From the NCBI GenBank assembly GCA_029101305.1, contig JAQXQS010000116.1, positions 1-44,913 of the forward strand: a DNA stretch of 44,913 nucleotides, written 5' to 3'. Shown in pieces: positions 11,517-21,964 of the stretch. Position numbers and translations under genes: made by a program. Numbering within the stretch: position 1 is the stretch's first letter; the number at the start of each line of letters is the position of its first letter. Under the pieces are notes generated by a model. The model was given only the letters and a program-made list of their open reading frames with translations, was not told where the DNA came from and made no database searches. This DNA is from Clostridia bacterium. GTDB lineage: Bacteria; Bacillota; Clostridia; Lachnospirales; Lachnospiraceae.

Positions 11517-12662
11517 TTACATAATCTTTCTAAACAGATCTTTCAGATCTTCTACGCTTGCATCTTTCGGATTTCCTGGTGCGCAGGCATCTGCATGGGC
11601 AGATTCTGCAAGAAACTGGAGATCTTCTTCTTTGATTGCTTCCAGCTTCGTCGGGATTCCAACATCAACAGAAAGTTTTCTGACTGCATCAATAGCAGCT
11701 TTTCTGTACTCTTCCTGAGTCATGGAATCAACATCTTTCACACCCATTGCTCTTGCAATCTCACGGTATTTCTCACCAGTGCACTCCTGGTTGTACTCCA
11801 TAACGATCGGAAGCATCATAGCACATGCAACACCATGAGGAGTATCGTATACAGCACCTAATGTATGTGCCATGGAATGAGCGATTCCAAGTCCCACATT
11901 GGAGAATCCCAGTCCTGCGATGTACTGGCCAAGAGCCATTCCTTCACGCCCCTCTTTGGTGTTGTCAACAGCCCCTCTTAAAGATTTGGAGATCAGTTCG
12001 ATTGCTTTGAGATGGAACATGTCTGTCATCTCCCAGGCTGCCTTTGTTGTATAACCTTCAATTGCATGTGTAAGAGCATCCATACCAGTGGAAGCAGTCA
12101 GGCCTTTTGGCATAGAGGACATCATCTCAGGATCTACAACTGCGATGATCGGCATATCATGTGGGTCTACACATACGAATTTTCTCTTTTTCTCAACATC
12201 AGTGATAACATAGTTGATGGTAACCTCTGCTGCGGTACCTGCTGTAGTCGGAACAGCAATAATCGGAACACATGGTTTCTTTGTAGGTGCAGTACCCTCA
12301 AGGCTTCTTACATCCTCAAATTCCGGGTTGGCAATGATGATACCGATTGCCTTTGCTGTATCCATGGAAGAACCACCGCCAATTGCTACAATGTAATCTG
12401 CACCTGATTTCTTAAATGCAGCTACACCATTCTGGACATTCTGGATGGTCGGGTTTGCTTTAATATCAGAATAGATCTCATACTCAAGACCGTTTTTCTC
12501 AAGAATATCTGTAACTTTGCTTGTTACATTGAATTTGATCAGATCCGGATCAGAGCAGACAAATGCTTTTTTGAATGCATGTGCCTTTGCTTCATTTGCA
12601 ATTTCTGCAATTGCTCCTGCTCCATGATAAGAAGTACCGTTTAAATTAATTCTGTTTGCCAT
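11517..12662 (-). CDS. fucO: Iron-containing alcohol dehydrogenase, FucO (lactaldehyde/1,2-propanediol) type
   Basis: A 381-residue group III Fe-dependent alcohol dehydrogenase. It shows the nucleotide-binding GGGSSMDTAKA, the PTTAGTAAEVT substrate loop, and metal-ligand histidines in GMDALTHAIEGY and GIAHSMAHTLGAVYDTPHG. The latter closely matches E. coli FucO, which interconverts L-lactaldehyde and 1,2-propanediol. Specificity for butanol or ethanol cannot be excluded, so the symbol is a best guess. The start at 12662 (MANRINLNG) has AAAGGAAG about 10 nt upstream; an earlier in-frame ATG at 12761 lies inside the regulatory inverted repeat. The TetR gene immediately upstream is the obvious local regulator. 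Confidence 0.85.
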   Translation of the reverse strand: MANRINLNGTSYHGAGAIAEIANEAKAHAFKKAFVCSDPDLIKFNVTSKVTDILEKNGLEYEIYSDIKANPTIQNVQNGVAAFKKSGADYIVAIGGGSSMDTAKAIGIIIANPEFEDVRSLEGTAPTKKPCVPIIAVPTTAGTAAEVTINYVITDVEKKRKFVCVDPHDMPIIAVVDPEMMSSMPKGLTASTGMDALTHAIEGYTTKAAWEMTDMFHLKAIELISKSLRGAVDNTKEGREGMALGQYIAGLGFSNVGLGIAHSMAHTLGAVYDTPHGVACAMMLPIVMEYNQECTGEKYREIARAMGVKDVDSMTQEEYRKAAIDAVRKLSVDVGIPTKLEAIKEEDLQFLAESAHADACAPGNPKDASVEDLKDLFRKIM

Positions 12663-12734
12663 AATAAACAAGCTTCCTTTCTGCGATTTACGCCTTAACT
12701 TTGTTATTATATTAACAACATTAAGATAAAAAGA

Positions 12735-12776
12735 AAAGTTACAGATACGGTGAATTGTCACTTTTTCTGTAACTTT
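12735..12776 (-). promoter_or_regulatory. Long inverted repeat between tetR and the alcohol dehydrogenase gene
   Basis: Perfect 11-bp arms AAAGTTACAGA (12735-12745) and TCTGTAACTTT (12766-12776) enclose a smaller GTGA/TCAC stem. On the minus strand the hairpin is followed by TTTTCTTTTT, so it could terminate the TetR transcript. It also lies just upstream of a TATAAT (12711-12706) that would serve the dehydrogenase, where a TetR-family operator could sit. The two roles cannot be separated by eye. Confidence 0.55.
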
Positions 12777-15978: not shown

Positions 15979-18837
15979 TTATTTCTTGTATATAATCTTC
16001 CCAAGTGTAAGCATAAGCTCTTCTGCACTGATCGGCTTCGCCAGATGTCCGTCCATTCCGGCTTCTTTTGAGGCTTCCCTGTCTTCATCAAATGCATTCG
16101 CTGAAACCGCAATAACAGGTATCTCTGCAAGATCCGGATCCGATAGTTCGCGGATTTTGCGGGTAGCTGTATATCCATCCATTACAGGCATCTGAATGTC
16201 CATAAGAACTGCTGTGTAATAACCTGGAGAAGATTTTATTATTTTCTCTACTGCAATTGCCCCATTTTCTGCCACATCCACCAGAAGACCTGAATCCTCC
16301 AGAATCGCAACTGCGATTTCCCGGTTCAGAATATTATCCTCCGCCAAAAGGATTCGCTTACCAGCAAAAATTTCAGGTGGATAAAATTCTCTGGTCTGGC
16401 TGATCTTTGCCGGGGCATCTGCCAGTCTCTGGCACAATTTCACTACGATCTCAGTTCCCTTGTTTTCTTCGGAATCAATCTGGATCGTACCGCCCATCAG
16501 ATCCACAAATCCTTTTATGATGGTCATACCAAGTCCGGTTCCCTGCACTCCGCTTACCGTAGAGGTAGATTGTCTCTCAAATGGCAGGAACACTTTTTTC
16601 TGGAATTCCTTACTCATGCCGCAACCGTTGTCTTTTACACGTATTTCATAATTTCCATAGTCTTTGTGTTTACAAGGGAACTGAAGGATCCGAAGAGAAA
16701 TCCTTCCTCCCGTCTGGGTGTATTTCACAGAATTTCCAAGAAGATTAACCAGAATTTCCTTCATGCGTAGTTTATCACAATATATATAATAATTCTGGAT
16801 CTGCGAAATATCTATCGTAAATATCTGATTCTTCTCCTGTGCCTGATTGCTGATGATCACGCTGGTCTCATCTACAATATCCCTGATGCTGCATATATTC
16901 TCGTCCAGCTTCGTCTGGCCGCTTTCGATTCTGCTGATCTCCAGTACTTCATTTACGATACCAAGAAGATGTTCACTTGATACTTTGATTTTCGACAAAT
17001 AGTCCTGTACCTTTTCGGAATCATCCCCGGACTGAATAGCAAGATTGGTAAAACCAACTACTGCATTCATAGGTGTACGGATATCGTGGGACATGTTCTG
17101 AAGAAATACCTTCTTTGCCACTGATGCCTGTCTGGCAGCTCCAAGAGCTTCCTCCAGAAGTTCTTTATGCTTCTGCTCTTTTCTGGCAGCTGCCTGCTGT
17201 GCCTGTTCCCGCCGGATAAAATACCAGATGATCAGTAATAATATAGCTGACATGATTCCTGTAAACAGCCATACATGATCCTGTATCACATCGGTCAGAG
17301 TATATGTAGACAGGGTATTCAGATACCGGTAAGTATGATTGAGACCATAGCTCTCGCCAAGAACGCTTATGCCATGGTTCACGACCTGAAGCATACCGCT
17401 GTTCCCATGGGCAACGCCAAAGCAGACCTTCTCTTCATCAGTCAGTGTGATCACATTCATTTTCCGTTCCCCGTGAAGGAGCTGACTGACACGGAGTGCT
17501 CCAAGCAATGTGCTCCCTGCCTCCCCGGAGCTTACTGCTTCGACACATTCTTCAACAGAATCATAGGGAAGGATTTCAGAATCCGGATAATTGGATATAG
17601 TATACCAGTATTGACGCAGATTATTCCTGTTTACCGCTATTTTATCCGTAATCCCCTCTTTATAGGGCTCTTTATAAGCGAGAGAAATGGGAAATTCCAC
17701 TACAGCAGAACTCTGGACAAAACCATTCTGCTCTGAGTACCATTTGCCGTCGCTTACCGGAAAAATCATATCTAGATCACCATTTTTCAGACATTCCAGC
17801 ATATCGTTCTGGTCTTCAAATGGCTGATATACGATTTCCGGCTTATAATTTCCAGGAAGAGCCTGAAACATATCCGGAACAATATCACAAAGAAGTCCCG
17901 TTACAGATCCATCTTTCTGGGTATCACAGTATGGCAGATAATGATCCAGATAACCCACTACGATTTTCTCATGCTCATCCATCCATTTCTGCTCTTTTTC
18001 AGACAGAAAAACACTGACTGTAGTTTCCGTATAGTACTTATTTTTCAGGTCATCCAGATCTGCTGAGTCCTGCTCATTTATAATATTCATAGCCATGTTC
18101 AGTTCATTAAGAAGATCCGGACGGTCTTTCGCAATGCAGATGTAGAAAGGCTGTTTGCCTATTTTTTCCACAGGATTAATCCCAAAATAAGAAGAGACAA
18201 CATTGTCTGCACTTACAAAACCATCTATTTCCTTGTTATTAAATCCCTGTGCACAGGTTTGCAGATCGTCATAATAGACAATTTCAATATCCACATAATT
18301 CTGTATCTTCCATTTTTCAAGAGCAGCAGTCATTCGCTGGTTGTTTCGCAGGGTCCCGATCTTTTTCCCTTTGTAGGAATTCATATCACCACATTTTATG
18401 GAGTCATCATCAGCATTTTTGTAAATATAGAAAGTCTCATTAAGCATTGGCGCATCCGGATAACGGATCAACTGGATCCGGTCAGAAGAATACGCGATTC
18501 CAGCCATCAGGTCAATCTCACCGGAAACCAGCTCTTCATAAAGTGTTGACCAGTCTCCATACACATATTCATATTTCCAGCCTGTATAAGATGCAAGCTT
18601 CTGTAGATACTCATAGCTGTATCCGCTTTTCACCTCATCATCACTGGTGCCCTCCTGGAAATTATGAGAAAAGTAATAGCCTACCCGGACTGTCTTCTGA
18701 CTTTCTGCACATATTTTTACAGGAAAAAAAGCTATAAGTCCCAGGCATAATATCATGCATGGAAAAATATAGCTATTTCTAAATTTCCTGAAAAGATTCA
18801 GTGGTTTATTCTCTTCTTCTTTGCCCTTCTCCATCAT
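15979..18837 (-). CDS. Hybrid histidine kinase with two extracytoplasmic solute-binding sensor domains
   Basis: A 952-residue membrane sensor. A signal-anchor helix lies at about 23-43. Two SBP_bac_3-type (family 3 solute-binding) domains follow at about 48-272 and 290-510, then a transmembrane helix at 520-541. HisKA has phospho-acceptor H584 in QNMSHDIRTPMNA. HATPase_c carries ILVNLLGNSVKYTQ, DNGCGMS and GTGLGM. A C-terminal receiver has D880 in VLMDIQMPVMDGY. It resembles EvgS/BvgS-like sensors of small ligands but without their Hpt domain. The start (MMEKGKEEE) follows AAGGA by about 6 nt. It is last in a unit with two EutS-like shell proteins and EutP, 81 nt after eutP, suggesting a ligand sensor tied to that system. 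No partner response regulator is adjacent. Confidence 0.9.
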   Translation of the reverse strand: MMEKGKEEENKPLNLFRKFRNSYIFPCMILCLGLIAFFPVKICAESQKTVRVGYYFSHNFQEGTSDDEVKSGYSYEYLQKLASYTGWKYEYVYGDWSTLYEELVSGEIDLMAGIAYSSDRIQLIRYPDAPMLNETFYIYKNADDDSIKCGDMNSYKGKKIGTLRNNQRMTAALEKWKIQNYVDIEIVYYDDLQTCAQGFNNKEIDGFVSADNVVSSYFGINPVEKIGKQPFYICIAKDRPDLLNELNMAMNIINEQDSADLDDLKNKYYTETTVSVFLSEKEQKWMDEHEKIVVGYLDHYLPYCDTQKDGSVTGLLCDIVPDMFQALPGNYKPEIVYQPFEDQNDMLECLKNGDLDMIFPVSDGKWYSEQNGFVQSSAVVEFPISLAYKEPYKEGITDKIAVNRNNLRQYWYTISNYPDSEILPYDSVEECVEAVSSGEAGSTLLGALRVSQLLHGERKMNVITLTDEEKVCFGVAHGNSGMLQVVNHGISVLGESYGLNHTYRYLNTLSTYTLTDVIQDHVWLFTGIMSAILLLIIWYFIRREQAQQAAARKEQKHKELLEEALGAARQASVAKKVFLQNMSHDIRTPMNAVVGFTNLAIQSGDDSEKVQDYLSKIKVSSEHLLGIVNEVLEISRIESGQTKLDENICSIRDIVDETSVIISNQAQEKNQIFTIDISQIQNYYIYCDKLRMKEILVNLLGNSVKYTQTGGRISLRILQFPCKHKDYGNYEIRVKDNGCGMSKEFQKKVFLPFERQSTSTVSGVQGTGLGMTIIKGFVDLMGGTIQIDSEENKGTEIVVKLCQRLADAPAKISQTREFYPPEIFAGKRILLAEDNILNREIAVAILEDSGLLVDVAENGAIAVEKIIKSSPGYYTAVLMDIQMPVMDGYTATRKIRELSDPDLAEIPVIAVSANAFDEDREASKEAGMDGHLAKPISAEELMLTLGKIIYKK

Positions 18838-18918
18838 GCCTATCCTTCTTCCCTATTACCTGATTTCAAACTAATCTTATTAAAGCTGCCATTGATCGTC
18901 TGGAATCTCTTCCTGTAA

Positions 18919-19449
18919 TCAGGAAATTCCCTCCGGATAAGTCACCCCTTTCGGAAGGGGATCCCATTCATTAAGGCCAAGACTCTGTTTGAACTTCGCC
19001 TGCTCCAGTGTAAGCCTTGGCATGTCGTCCTGCAGATATTCCATTAATTCATCAATGCCTTCCCTTGTCACATTGTTCACCATGAATATGCGCTCACAGC
19101 CTGCATTGATCAACCACTGTCTTACCATAGGAATATTGGCATATGGGGAATCGATTTTCGTAATAATACCGATCAGCGGACGCAAAATGAAAGAACGGCA
19201 GCTTGCTCCGAACAGATTAAAGGGTTCATCTGCTGCCTGTACAATAGCCACCACATCCGCTTCAAACGAAAAGCAGGCAAGTCCTACACTGAAATGCTTG
19301 GACTCCGCATACTCTCCAGGGGAATCGATGGTATCGTCATTTGAATTGGTATACTGCGTCTTTATGTAATGAAGCTCCTCGCCCTTCAGTGCCTGCGTCA
19401 GCGAAGTTTTACCAGCTTCACTTCTTCCCATTAAAAAAATCTTCTTCAT
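18919..19449 (-). CDS. eutP: EutP/PduV-family microcompartment-associated P-loop NTPase
   Basis: A 176-residue small Ras-like GTPase fold: P-loop GRSEAGKT at 8-15, DSPGEY (G3-like) at 42-47, TKID (G4) at 97-100. It matches EutP/PduV, proteins encoded in ethanolamine and propanediol microcompartment operons; PduV has been linked to microcompartment location and EutP to acetate kinase activity (literature knowledge, not visible here). The C-terminus is about 20-25 residues longer than typical EutP (ending KGVTYPEGIS). It lies 26 nt after a shell-protein gene and 81 nt before the hybrid kinase. The Shine-Dalgarno is weak (GGGG, about 13 nt upstream). Confidence 0.88.
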   Translation of the reverse strand: MKKIFLMGRSEAGKTSLTQALKGEELHYIKTQYTNSNDDTIDSPGEYAESKHFSVGLACFSFEADVVAIVQAADEPFNLFGASCRSFILRPLIGIITKIDSPYANIPMVRQWLINAGCERIFMVNNVTREGIDELMEYLQDDMPRLTLEQAKFKQSLGLNEWDPLPKGVTYPEGIS

Positions 19450-19475
19450 CTGTCTGTGTGTCCCCTATCTTTCCC

Positions 19476-19904
19476 TCAGCTCTTATTAACTTCACAAACT
19501 TTAAATCCCAGCTCCTGGTCAAAGAACCGCACAACCTCTTCCACTGCTGTCTGTACCTGTGACAGCCCGCCAGTCAATATAAGAGAACCGCAAAAACGGT
19601 CCATAAATCCAATCTGTACATCTGCGCTCTTCGTAGCAACATCTGCTGCCACCACCACTGCCTCCCATGGGGTAAAGCGGATCAATCCGATTGACTCTCC
19701 TGTATGGTCTTCCCCTTCATGAACACCGATGTGTAATCCCAGATTCTCATAAATACATGCCTGCGACGGGCTTATTACATGAGCCAGGCAAACCTCTTTG
19801 CCAGGTACACGTACACGGGTCATACGAAGCTTCTTGCCCTTCAGATGTTCATAATTATCATGGAACAGCATTTCCAGCAGTTCTTCCTTCGTTATTCGCT
19901 CCAT
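19476..19904 (-). CDS. EutS/PduU-like microcompartment shell protein with N-terminal extension
   Basis: A 142-residue circularly permuted BMC-domain protein. The core (LRMTRVRVPGKEVCLAHVIS to the C-terminal VCEVNKS) aligns with EutS, including the TPWEAVVVAADVATKSADV and IGFMDRFCGSLILTGGL segments. Compared with its upstream paralogue it has about 18 extra N-terminal residues (MERITKEELLEMLFHDNY...), which could form an amphipathic helix able to contact other shell or cargo proteins (inference). It lies 11 nt downstream of the first EutS-like gene, with an AGGAAG Shine-Dalgarno. EutS/PduU hexamers normally form minor shell facets with a small central barrel. A complete shell would also need BMC-H, BMC-T and BMC-P proteins, none of which is here. 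Confidence 0.88.
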   Translation of the reverse strand: MERITKEELLEMLFHDNYEHLKGKKLRMTRVRVPGKEVCLAHVISPSQACIYENLGLHIGVHEGEDHTGESIGLIRFTPWEAVVVAADVATKSADVQIGFMDRFCGSLILTGGLSQVQTAVEEVVRFFDQELGFKVCEVNKS

Positions 19905-19915
19905 GCTCTTACTTC

Positions 19916-20281
19916 CTATCGTTTCGTAATATTGCAGACTACATAGCCAAGAGAATCACGGAAATAATCTACGATCTCCGTCATAGCTGACATGACATCC
20001 GAAATCTCACCTGTAATGATCAGGGTTCCGGTAAAGCGGTCTGCAAATCCAAGATAAACATTACCACTCTTTACTGCGATATCTGAAGCGATAACAGCAG
20101 ATTCCGGCGGTGTCATATTCATAATTCCAATCGCTGAGGAACGGTAATCCAGCTGTGGGTTCAGTCCCAGCTTCTGATAAATGATCGGTGCCGGGCCGCC
20201 CATTACGTGGGCAAAGGTGATCTCCTTACCAGCTACTGTCTCCTGCACGATTCTGATCTGTTCTCCATGTTCATTTGCCAT
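19916..20281 (-). CDS. eutS: EutS/PduU-like microcompartment shell protein
   Basis: A 121-residue permuted BMC-domain protein of standard EutS length (about 110-120). Diagnostic segments are VAGKEITFAHVMGG, SSAIGIMNMTPPESAVIASD, KSGNVYLGFADRFTGTLIIT and the terminal VCNITKR. First gene of the EutS-EutS-EutP-kinase unit, with a good sigma-A promoter 50 nt upstream. The Shine-Dalgarno is AGAGAGG about 12 nt before ATG. The paralogue downstream shares roughly half its core residues by eye, so the pair probably arose by duplication. Confidence 0.9.
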   Translation of the reverse strand: MANEHGEQIRIVQETVAGKEITFAHVMGGPAPIIYQKLGLNPQLDYRSSAIGIMNMTPPESAVIASDIAVKSGNVYLGFADRFTGTLIITGEISDVMSAMTEIVDYFRDSLGYVVCNITKR

Positions 20282-20330
20282 TTATGTAGTGCCTCTCTTT
20301 CGAAAATAATATCTTCACATTTTATATTTT

Positions 20331-20359
20331 ATTGTACCATCTGATTTTATAAATAGCAA
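20331..20359 (-). promoter_or_regulatory. Sigma-A promoter of the EutS-EutS-EutP-kinase unit
   Basis: On the minus strand, TTGCTA (20359-20354), a 17-nt spacer and TACAAT (20336-20331), about 50 nt upstream of the first shell gene. Confidence 0.6.
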
Positions 20360-20477
20360 GTAAAACACTGTCTTTCACTGCTCTTAGAAGCAATTATTTG
20401 TACAAAATCCCTTTGGTCAATACGCCAATCTCTAAAATACTTCATAAAAAATCTTCGCATTTTCGAAAAATAAGAGG

Positions 20478-20506
20478 GTGACAGATAAGCCATAGTGTGA
20501 TAAAAT
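20478..20506 (+). promoter_or_regulatory. Sigma-A-like promoter of the MATE gene
   Basis: GTGACA (20478-20483), a 17-nt spacer and TAAAAT (20501-20506). Confidence 0.55.
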
Positions 20507-20590
20507 AGCTTTCGCTTCTGGATCAATGAAAACAGAGGCATTAATAATATGTAGCTTTTCAGTATATATTTATGGAAAAGAAGGGGTTTT

Positions 20591-21964
20591 ATGGAAAAAG
20601 ACATGACGAAGGGCCGGCCTTTGCCGGTGATTCTGAAATTTATGCTTCCTCTTATTATCGGAAACATTTTTCAGCAACTATACAATATGGCTGACACAAT
20701 TATCGTAGGCCGCTATGTAGGTGCCGATGCACTTGCGGCAGTTGGTTCCACAGGAACGATCATGTTTCTGATCGTAGGCTTTTCACAGGGAATCACCGCT
20801 GGTTTTTCTGTCCTTACTTCTCAGCGCTTCGGGGCGAAGGATACCGAAGGGGTAAAAGCCAGCGTTGCCAACGGTATTCTGCTCTCTTTGATTTTTACAG
20901 TTCTCATCAGTGGCCTCAGTATGCTCAGTATGCATTCCCTTCTGAAGCTGATGAATACTCCTGATAATATCTTTCAGGATGCTTATACCTATGTAATGAT
21001 CATCAGTGCGGGAATTATCGCCACTATTTTTTACAACCTGTTCTCCTCATTTCTCCGTGCTGTGGGAAATAGCAGGATTCCGCTTATTTTTCTGGTATTT
21101 TCCGCTGTTTTAAACGTTGCACTGGATCTTGTCCTGATCATCAATTTCAAAATGGGAGTGGCAGGTGCTGCTTACGCGACTATTTTTTCCCAGGGAATTT
21201 CCGCGATTCTCTGTCTGATCTATATTTATGTCCGCATGCCGGATCTTGCTCCTGACAGAAGACACTGGAAGCTTCACGGCAGGGAAAGCCGCAATCAGCT
21301 TGCCATGGGAATTCCGATGGCACTCCAGTTCGCCATTACTGCATCTGGAACCATGATCATGCAGGCGGCTATCAACCTTTTTGGTTCTGATGCGGTTGCT
21401 TCCTATACAGCCGCCAGCAAGCTACAGAACCTGGTTACACAGGGTATGATGGCTATGGGACAGACCATGGCGACCTACAGCGGCCAGAATTTTGGAAAAG
21501 GTGATATCAAACGTATCCGTCAGGGCGTGAAAGCAGCCCTTGGTGCTTCTGTTGTTTACGCAGTTGGTGCTGCAGTTCTTGTGGTTCTTCTGCTGAAACC
21601 GGCGCTGGGGTTGTTTTTCACTGGAGATGTGGATATGTCCAGTATGTTCCCATGGGCAAGAACGTATATTTATATGAGCATTATATTCTATATCCCACTT
21701 AGCACAATTTTCGTTTTCCGTAACACCATGCAGGGCTGTGGATATGGTTTTCTCCCGATGATGGGCGGTGTTTCTGAGCTGATCGCCCGTCTGGTTGTGG
21801 CAATGATTTCCATGGCTGTTGCAAGCTATCCGCTTGCATGCTTCTGTGATCCTGCGGCCTGGTTCACTGCCGCTGTTTTCACCGGTGTTTCCTATCTTTT
21901 CGTTATGAAGGATATCCGTAAAAAATATGAGAACCCAGAAAGTCTGTCCCACTCTGCAAAATAA
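20591..21964 (+). CDS. MATE-family efflux transporter
   Basis: A 457-residue protein with about 12 predicted transmembrane helices in two homologous halves. The N-terminal MATE signature is GNIFQQLYNMADTIIVGRYVGADALAAVGSTG; the second-half counterpart lies around SDAVASYTAASKLQNLVTQG. Family role: Na+- or H+-coupled export of cationic drugs or metabolites. Substrate unknown. Start ATG 20591 has AAGAAGGGG 5 nt upstream. It stands alone, divergent from the EutS unit, and ends in a hairpin terminator. Confidence 0.93.
   Translation: MEKDMTKGRPLPVILKFMLPLIIGNIFQQLYNMADTIIVGRYVGADALAAVGSTGTIMFLIVGFSQGITAGFSVLTSQRFGAKDTEGVKASVANGILLSLIFTVLISGLSMLSMHSLLKLMNTPDNIFQDAYTYVMIISAGIIATIFYNLFSSFLRAVGNSRIPLIFLVFSAVLNVALDLVLIINFKMGVAGAAYATIFSQGISAILCLIYIYVRMPDLAPDRRHWKLHGRESRNQLAMGIPMALQFAITASGTMIMQAAINLFGSDAVASYTAASKLQNLVTQGMMAMGQTMATYSGQNFGKGDIKRIRQGVKAALGASVVYAVGAAVLVVLLLKPALGLFFTGDVDMSSMFPWARTYIYMSIIFYIPLSTIFVFRNTMQGCGYGFLPMMGGVSELIARLVVAMISMAVASYPLACFCDPAAWFTAAVFTGVSYLFVMKDIRKKYENPESLSHSAK

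Follow-up and report, generated by a model that had tools for sequence, protein, structure and literature searches.

A conserved EutS1-EutS2-EutP gene trio of Lachnospiraceae as a probable satellite-like microcompartment locus

Results

The genes of the locus

The subject of this study is a short group of microcompartment-related genes in a 44,913-nucleotide stretch of DNA (hereafter the window) from Clostridia bacterium, a member of the Lachnospiraceae (GenBank assembly GCA_029101305.1, contig JAQXQS010000116.1). A first-pass annotation, made without database searches, had read positions 15,979 to 20,359 as an enzyme-free unit of four genes under one promoter, namely two EutS-like shell proteins, an EutP NTPase and a hybrid histidine kinase. 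Four open reading frames do lie there, all on the minus strand (Table 1), and their Pfam matches agree with the identities proposed. EutS1 and EutS2 are separated by 11 bp, EutS2 and EutP by 26 bp, and EutP and the kinase by 81 bp. As had also been claimed, there is neither a signature enzyme nor a gene for the vertex protein (BMC-P, where BMC denotes bacterial microcompartment) within the four-gene stretch. We refer to EutS1, EutS2 and EutP together as the trio.

Table 1. Features of the window discussed in the text
Feature	Positions	Strand	Length or basis
EutS1, opening gene of the trio; BMC-H shell protein of the permuted PduU/EutS type	19916..20281	-	121 aa
EutS2, BMC-H shell protein of the permuted type, carrying predicted N-terminal helices and a conserved loop, LHIGVHEGEDHTGE	19476..19904	-	142 aa
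EutP/PduV-family Ras-like NTPase with conserved C-terminal tail	18919..19449	-	176 aa
Hybrid histidine kinase, judged a neighbour outside the unit	15979..18837	-	Pfam domains; absent beside the trio in relatives
Possible trio promoter, TTGCTA-17-TACAAT	20331..20359	-	Consensus scan; weak alone
Lactaldehyde reductase (FucO)	11517..12761		NCBIfam 660.9 bits (cut-off 537)

Both shell proteins match the Pfam BMC domain (EutS2 52.6 and EutS1 45.4 bits, cut-off 24.5), and among solved structures their best sequence matches are EutS and PduU. The predicted structure of EutS2, modelled as a monomer from an alignment of 48 rows of window and locus sequences, has a mean pLDDT (predicted local distance difference test score) of 90, and its top PDB fold matches are EutS (4axi) and PduU (3cgi), together with CutR chains; the permuted BMC fold is thus indicated for EutS2 by its model and for both proteins by sequence matching. 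Neither reaches the NCBIfam cut-off of 123 bits for the EutS subfamily (EutS1 85.6, EutS2 71.4), and nor does another EutS of the same genome, encoded on contig C69 (109.7). EutS2 differs from EutS1 in having additional predicted N-terminal helices (residues 6-14 and 18-21), which accounts for the N-terminal extension noted in the first reading, and a longer, highly conserved loop, LHIGVHEGEDHTGE. We speculate that this helix and loop may alter docking or the pore. In a phylogenetic tree, in which several EutS2 rows were trimmed to 115 aa and hence represent the core domain only, EutS1 and EutS2 form separate clades apart from the EutS proteins of main microcompartment loci (support 0.96 and 1.0). 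The EutS2 clade can also be separated by identity in the family genomes (at least 49%, as compared to up to 45% for other EutS proteins), and a plasmid search with EutS2 returned only distant matches, 31 records that were all below 60%.

EutP matches the Pfam PduV-EutP family with 152.5 bits (cut-off 21) and misses the NCBIfam cut-offs for the EutP subfamily (125 against 138.35 bits) and for the acetate-kinase EutP (53 against 258 bits); a search of its sequence against the PDB gave no match at E<=0.001. Across 81 EutP sequences each position of the P-loop GRSEAGKT is more than 90% conserved, and the C-terminal tail, rightly described as longer, is conserved as well. Mean pairwise identity within the trio is 91% for EutS1, 80% for EutS2 and 82% for EutP (80-81 sequences).

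Conservation of the trio and the position of the kinase

Named genome contigs were scanned with EutS2, and the best 80 of 185 relatives were taken as the locus sample. Twelve genomes of the family were compared in addition; five of these share EutS2 DNA with loci among the 80 and were not recounted, and the other seven, together with four near-closed genomes of the genus (L193, L200-L202), make up 11 further distinct genomes. The order EutS1-EutS2-EutP on one strand is found in 79 of the 80 loci, with gaps of at most 633 bp (the maximum in L116), while in the 80th, L129, EutS1 is missing since the contig starts there; all 11 further genomes have the same order. A divergent trio in the genome G216 carries two tandem EutP genes (L165 978-2614), 62% and 59% identical to the EutP of the window. 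Apart from antisense frames, clustering of the neighbouring genes found no other family in more than eight of the 80 loci, a rough ceiling given that the method misses members and recovered EutP itself in 66 and the EutS cluster in 64 loci. The sequence surrounding the 80 loci, often less than 10 kb of it, yielded no match to an aldolase or aldehyde dehydrogenase (AldDH) of the glycyl radical enzyme-associated microcompartment (GRM) type.

The kinase behaves differently. Its Pfam domains are SBP_bac_3, HisKA, HATPase_c and Response_reg; one solute-binding domain is detected, at residues 66-269, and the second that had been proposed is not seen at the same threshold (E<=0.001). It directly follows EutP in none of the 80 loci and in none of the 11 further genomes. 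Matches to it occur at a distance in five of the 80 loci (22-41% identity), the nearest being about 0.75 kb downstream in L062 (24%, 312 aa), and in one of the 12 family genomes (L159, 23%, about 8 kb away). Homologues with 33-42% identity are present in 12 other genomes of the genus (64 examined, no more than 13 candidates per genome being scored), none of them adjoining the trio. The four-gene unit of the first-pass annotation is thereby reduced to three genes: the trio order is kept across relatives and the kinase is adjacent in none of those compared. We reject the kinase as a member, since its position after EutP is conserved in none of the 80 loci and 11 further genomes, and regard it as probably an accidental neighbour.

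Co-occurrence with a complete microcompartment

The family sample comprised 299 genomes, 13 with the EutS2 clade and 90 with BMC-P. BMC-P was found in 12 of the 13 trio genomes as compared to 78 of the 286 family genomes without the trio (Fisher p=3e-6), and within the genus (64 genomes) in 31 of 36 trio genomes as compared to 16 of 28 others (p=0.012), although the genomes are related and these p values overstate their independence. The sole exception in the family sample is the source genome itself. All five trio genomes of the genus assembled in four contigs or fewer (G307, G312, G314, G342 and G359) have BMC-P. Among the relatives in the family sample, all 12 that carry the trio have it on a contig other than that of BMC-P.

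A likely partner is illustrated by the genome G263, of the same genus. Its full main locus holds genes for a glycyl radical enzyme (GRE), activase, aldolase, AldDH, alcohol dehydrogenase (ADH), four BMC-H proteins, PduL, BMC-P, PduS, PduT, DeoR, an iron-type ADH (Fe-ADH) and PduO, as labelled by our own reading and by the published table for Cphy_1174-1187 (PMC3557285). The GRM5 gene set (GRE, activase, class II aldolase, AldDH, PduL, BMC-P, PduS, PduT and DeoR) is complete in G263 and in some other genomes. The main locus of G263 contains neither EutS nor EutP; the slot before the aldolase is empty and the trio lies elsewhere. Of the 12 family genomes that have both trio and BMC-P, 10 encode an AldDH sharing 66% identity or more with the one in the GRM5-like locus of G263 (search at E<=1e-120, which places the cut AldDH of the source genome outside the count).

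The first-pass annotation had named, as an observation that would speak against a locus of its own kind, relatives in which the genes are contiguous with a full operon. One near case exists: G359, assembled as a single contig, has a complete GRM5-type operon with the trio some 6 kb upstream of it, on the same strand and with unrelated-looking genes between (L193 4223-11557). Since the trio keeps its own three-gene form and lies on contigs other than those of BMC-P in 12 of 12 family relatives, we do not regard it as simply a rearranged fragment.

Partly complementary distribution of the trio and main-locus EutS

For this comparison a EutS outside the trio was taken as a main-locus EutS. It is present in 9 of the 31 genus genomes that have trio and BMC-P, and in 13 of the 16 that have BMC-P alone (p=0.0016); no other EutS was found in the remaining 22 of the 31. 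Taken together, 44 of the 47 BMC-P genomes of the genus have at least one source of EutS, be it the trio or another gene. Among the 22 BMC-P genomes with a EutS outside the trio, this gene is within 12 kb of BMC-P in 17 and on another contig in five. The trio and a EutS copy within the operon therefore look partly interchangeable. In all four genomes with the trio and a GRM5-type main EutS and EutP, the trio EutS1 and EutP are closer to those of the window than the main copies are to those of C69.

The rest of the source genome

A survey of the remaining contigs, as the first-pass annotation had advised, recovered part of a main operon. Contig C69 carries EutS and EutP immediately ahead of an aldolase (90% identical to that of G263), and an AldDH fragment (88%), and C219 carries a GRE (84%) and its activase (78%). 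The profile search of the source genome with BMC-P (PF03319) gave no match. Because C69 begins the main operon and ends inside AldDH, this absence probably reflects a gap in the assembly, which has 226 contigs and is 93.7% complete. Two further candidates were not counted as parts of the organelle, namely a PduL on C143, which has no BMC genes beside it on its contig and is 45% identical to the PduL of G263, and a second GRE on C2 (36% identity).

Two other places in this genome encode shell proteins. A lone PduB-type BMC-T gene at C90:71623-72336 (L010 9623-10336; NCBIfam PduB 332.7 bits, cut-off 310) is a probable second satellite shell gene; we note that the main locus of G263 has PduT and no PduB. 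On C225 two BMC-H genes (L008 8228-8838) stand beside genes that we read as xanthine dehydrogenase, molybdenum-cofactor and YgeW/YgeY-like purine genes, possibly another type of microcompartment.

Upstream sequences

The promoter candidate upstream of EutS1 matches the consensus at 9 of 12 positions. The single promoter proposed at first may be present, but it is weak as a lone site, the interval 18700-20600 containing 10 promoter-like sites as compared to a mean of 4.6 in shuffled sequences. In many relatives EutS1 is preceded by a sequence resembling TTGACA...TAGTAT, and the stretches upstream of the trio often carry CTTGACA and AGTATGATT.

A different motif, TGTTG-N6-GTTGAC, is often followed by a TATAAT-like box. 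Ten GRE genes have 143 bp or more of DNA upstream, and the motif stands in exact form before six of them, as it does before two of the six EutS genes outside the trio. We infer that it is a DeoR operator. Before 87 distinct trio operons the exact motif was found in no case, and with one mismatch in one. Because the trio promoters are without the motif of many main-operon promoters, the trio tiles are probably made under separate control, as this difference suggests. In the source genome the motif precedes both operons of the presumed organelle, that is, GRE on C219 and EutS(-EutP-aldolase) on C69, suggesting one regulon split over two places.

The motif occurs nowhere in the window. The FucO gene listed in Table 1 lies in the window as well, and the GRM5 dehydratase is expected to act on 1,2-propanediol, which the FucO enzyme produces. 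As a member of the unit this gene would fit the pathway, but it was rejected, with one match in the 80 loci (L071, 36%) and no main-operon motif anywhere in the window.

Discussion

We interpret EutS1-EutS2-EutP as a satellite locus of a microcompartment, most often of the GRM5 organelle, with the kinase as an accidental neighbour, and assign this reading a probability of roughly 78%. Of the two proposals in the first-pass annotation, that of a satellite locus whose products add facets to a shell with its main genes elsewhere agrees well with the co-occurrence of BMC-P and with the location of the trio on other contigs. EutS1 and EutS2 would form permuted hexamers and be built into the shell facets as minor tiles, while EutP would dock on the beta-barrel that EutS hexamers are expected to project outside the shell, by analogy with the arrangement proposed for PduU and PduV. 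In many genomes the trio would replace the EutS (and EutP) that elsewhere adjoin the aldolase of the main operon; in others, the source genome included, it would supplement them. The tiles would probably be expressed under control separate from that of the enzyme operon, and the organelle itself, if of the GRM5 type, would ferment fucose and rhamnose via 1,2-propanediol.

Several observations weigh against this interpretation, in addition to the relatedness of the genomes and the negative BMC-P search in the source genome. Five of the 36 trio genomes of the genus have no BMC-P, all of them fragmented assemblies (about 120-320 contigs, 82-94% complete). Five of the 13 EutS genes outside the trio in trio-less genomes are on contigs other than that of BMC-P, again in fragmented assemblies. 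The putative operator is missing before 4 of the 10 GRE genes and 4 of the 6 EutS genes outside the trio, some of which are inside operons or have short upstream DNA. With regard to the partner, a preference for genomes with GRM-type AldDH is not significant within the BMC-P genomes (57 of these have that AldDH, 10 of them with the trio; 33 lack it, two of them with the trio; p=0.2), and G291 and G216 pair the trio with other BMC types. GRM5 is thus not the sole possible partner, and an exclusive partnership is unsupported. Finally, PMC12487888 reports that the EutP of Salmonella is cytosolic and that EutS and PduU are dispensable.

A more specific and rather tentative version of the satellite interpretation, which we consider unlikely yet conceivable, is that the trio serves as a portable adaptor on the outer face. 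It would then pair two dedicated kinds of EutS hexamer with a GTPase for positioning or marking the organelle; EutS2 would contribute its N-terminal helix and its conserved His/Glu/Asp-rich loop, which could bind metal or gate the pore, and the separately expressed set could be used by more than one type of microcompartment.

Alternatively, EutS hexamers and EutP might be used independently of a shell, for instance in a small assembly without BMC-P. The separate contigs of trio and BMC-P in the family relatives, the trio promoters without the main-operon motif and the missing BMC-P of the source assembly would agree with this. Against it stand the joint occurrence of trio and BMC-P, including in all five of the least fragmented trio genomes of the genus, and the partial complementarity, and we consider it improbable. 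Equally improbable is that the trio arose by rearrangement or decay from an ordinary pdu or GRM operon and has no role of its own. EutS and EutP are normally part of such operons, as on C69, and in G359 the trio is indeed close to one; decay is difficult to reconcile with strong conservation of all three proteins, with the distinct clades of EutS1 and EutS2, and with the four genomes in which trio and main copies remain distinguishable. Least probable of all is the second proposal of the first-pass annotation, a signalling module in which the kinase would sense an external ligand and thereby control or employ EutP and the shell proteins: the kinase follows on the same strand and no terminator-like site was found in the gap, making read-through possible in the source strain, but the kinase drops out of the unit in every relative compared, its homologues in the genus stand apart from the trio, and the link to BMC-P conflicts with it.

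If the satellite interpretation is correct, searches confined to main operons undercount the shell parts of Lachnospiraceae microcompartments. The trio would also offer a clean handle on the role of PduU/EutS and PduV/EutP, whose Salmonella representatives look dispensable (PMC12487888), as it could be removed with the enzyme operon untouched.

Comparison with known systems

Our literature searches, which covered papers outside their supplementary locus diagrams, found none describing an EutS1-EutS2-EutP unit. The pairing of EutS1 with EutS2, the N-terminal helix and His/Glu/Asp-rich loop of EutS2, and the partial complementarity with EutS genes outside the trio are the new details.

PduU and PduV of the Pdu system, and EutS and EutP of the Eut system, belong to the same two protein families as the trio. 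PMC4315436 describes an interaction of PduU with PduV from a preliminary two-hybrid test, and predicts that docking takes place on the beta-barrel of PduU, at the outer side of the shell. The trio differs in having two EutS proteins per EutP, the helix and H/E/D-rich loop of EutS2, the longer EutP tail and a place outside the enzyme operon.

With regard to the satellite BMC loci of Axen (2014), the trio has an insufficient shell complement (two PF00936 genes, with no PF03319 match in the genome) and contiguous shell genes (EutS1 and EutS2, adjacent in relatives too). Such loci are also described as free of other BMC-associated genes, and the trio includes EutP, so that the strict label is satellite-like. 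As Axen and Sutter use the terms, we therefore class the trio as a satellite-like locus, of a form that is specific and well conserved. In the sections of PMC4207490 at hand, PduV/EutP is near 57% of satellite-like loci in one place and a quarter in another, and those of PMC8217296 propose that separate expression of satellite loci tunes shell permeability. The trio shares with the loci of these sections a small number of contiguous shell genes, the lack of BMC-P and a location away from the main locus; it differs by its fixed three-gene form and two divergent EutS paralogues, and its partial complementarity with main-locus EutS has no counterpart in them.

The closest main locus for comparison is the GRM5 fucose/rhamnose locus of C. 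phytofermentans, Cphy_1174-1187, where, according to PMC3557285, a PduU gene lies between the activase and the aldolase. Its genes have their counterparts in the main locus of G263 (GRE, activase, aldolase, AldDH, ADH, BMC-H, PduL, BMC-P, PduS, PduT and a DeoR-type regulator). On that comparison, the PduU slot that is filled in C. phytofermentans is empty in G263, which carries the trio elsewhere in its genome.

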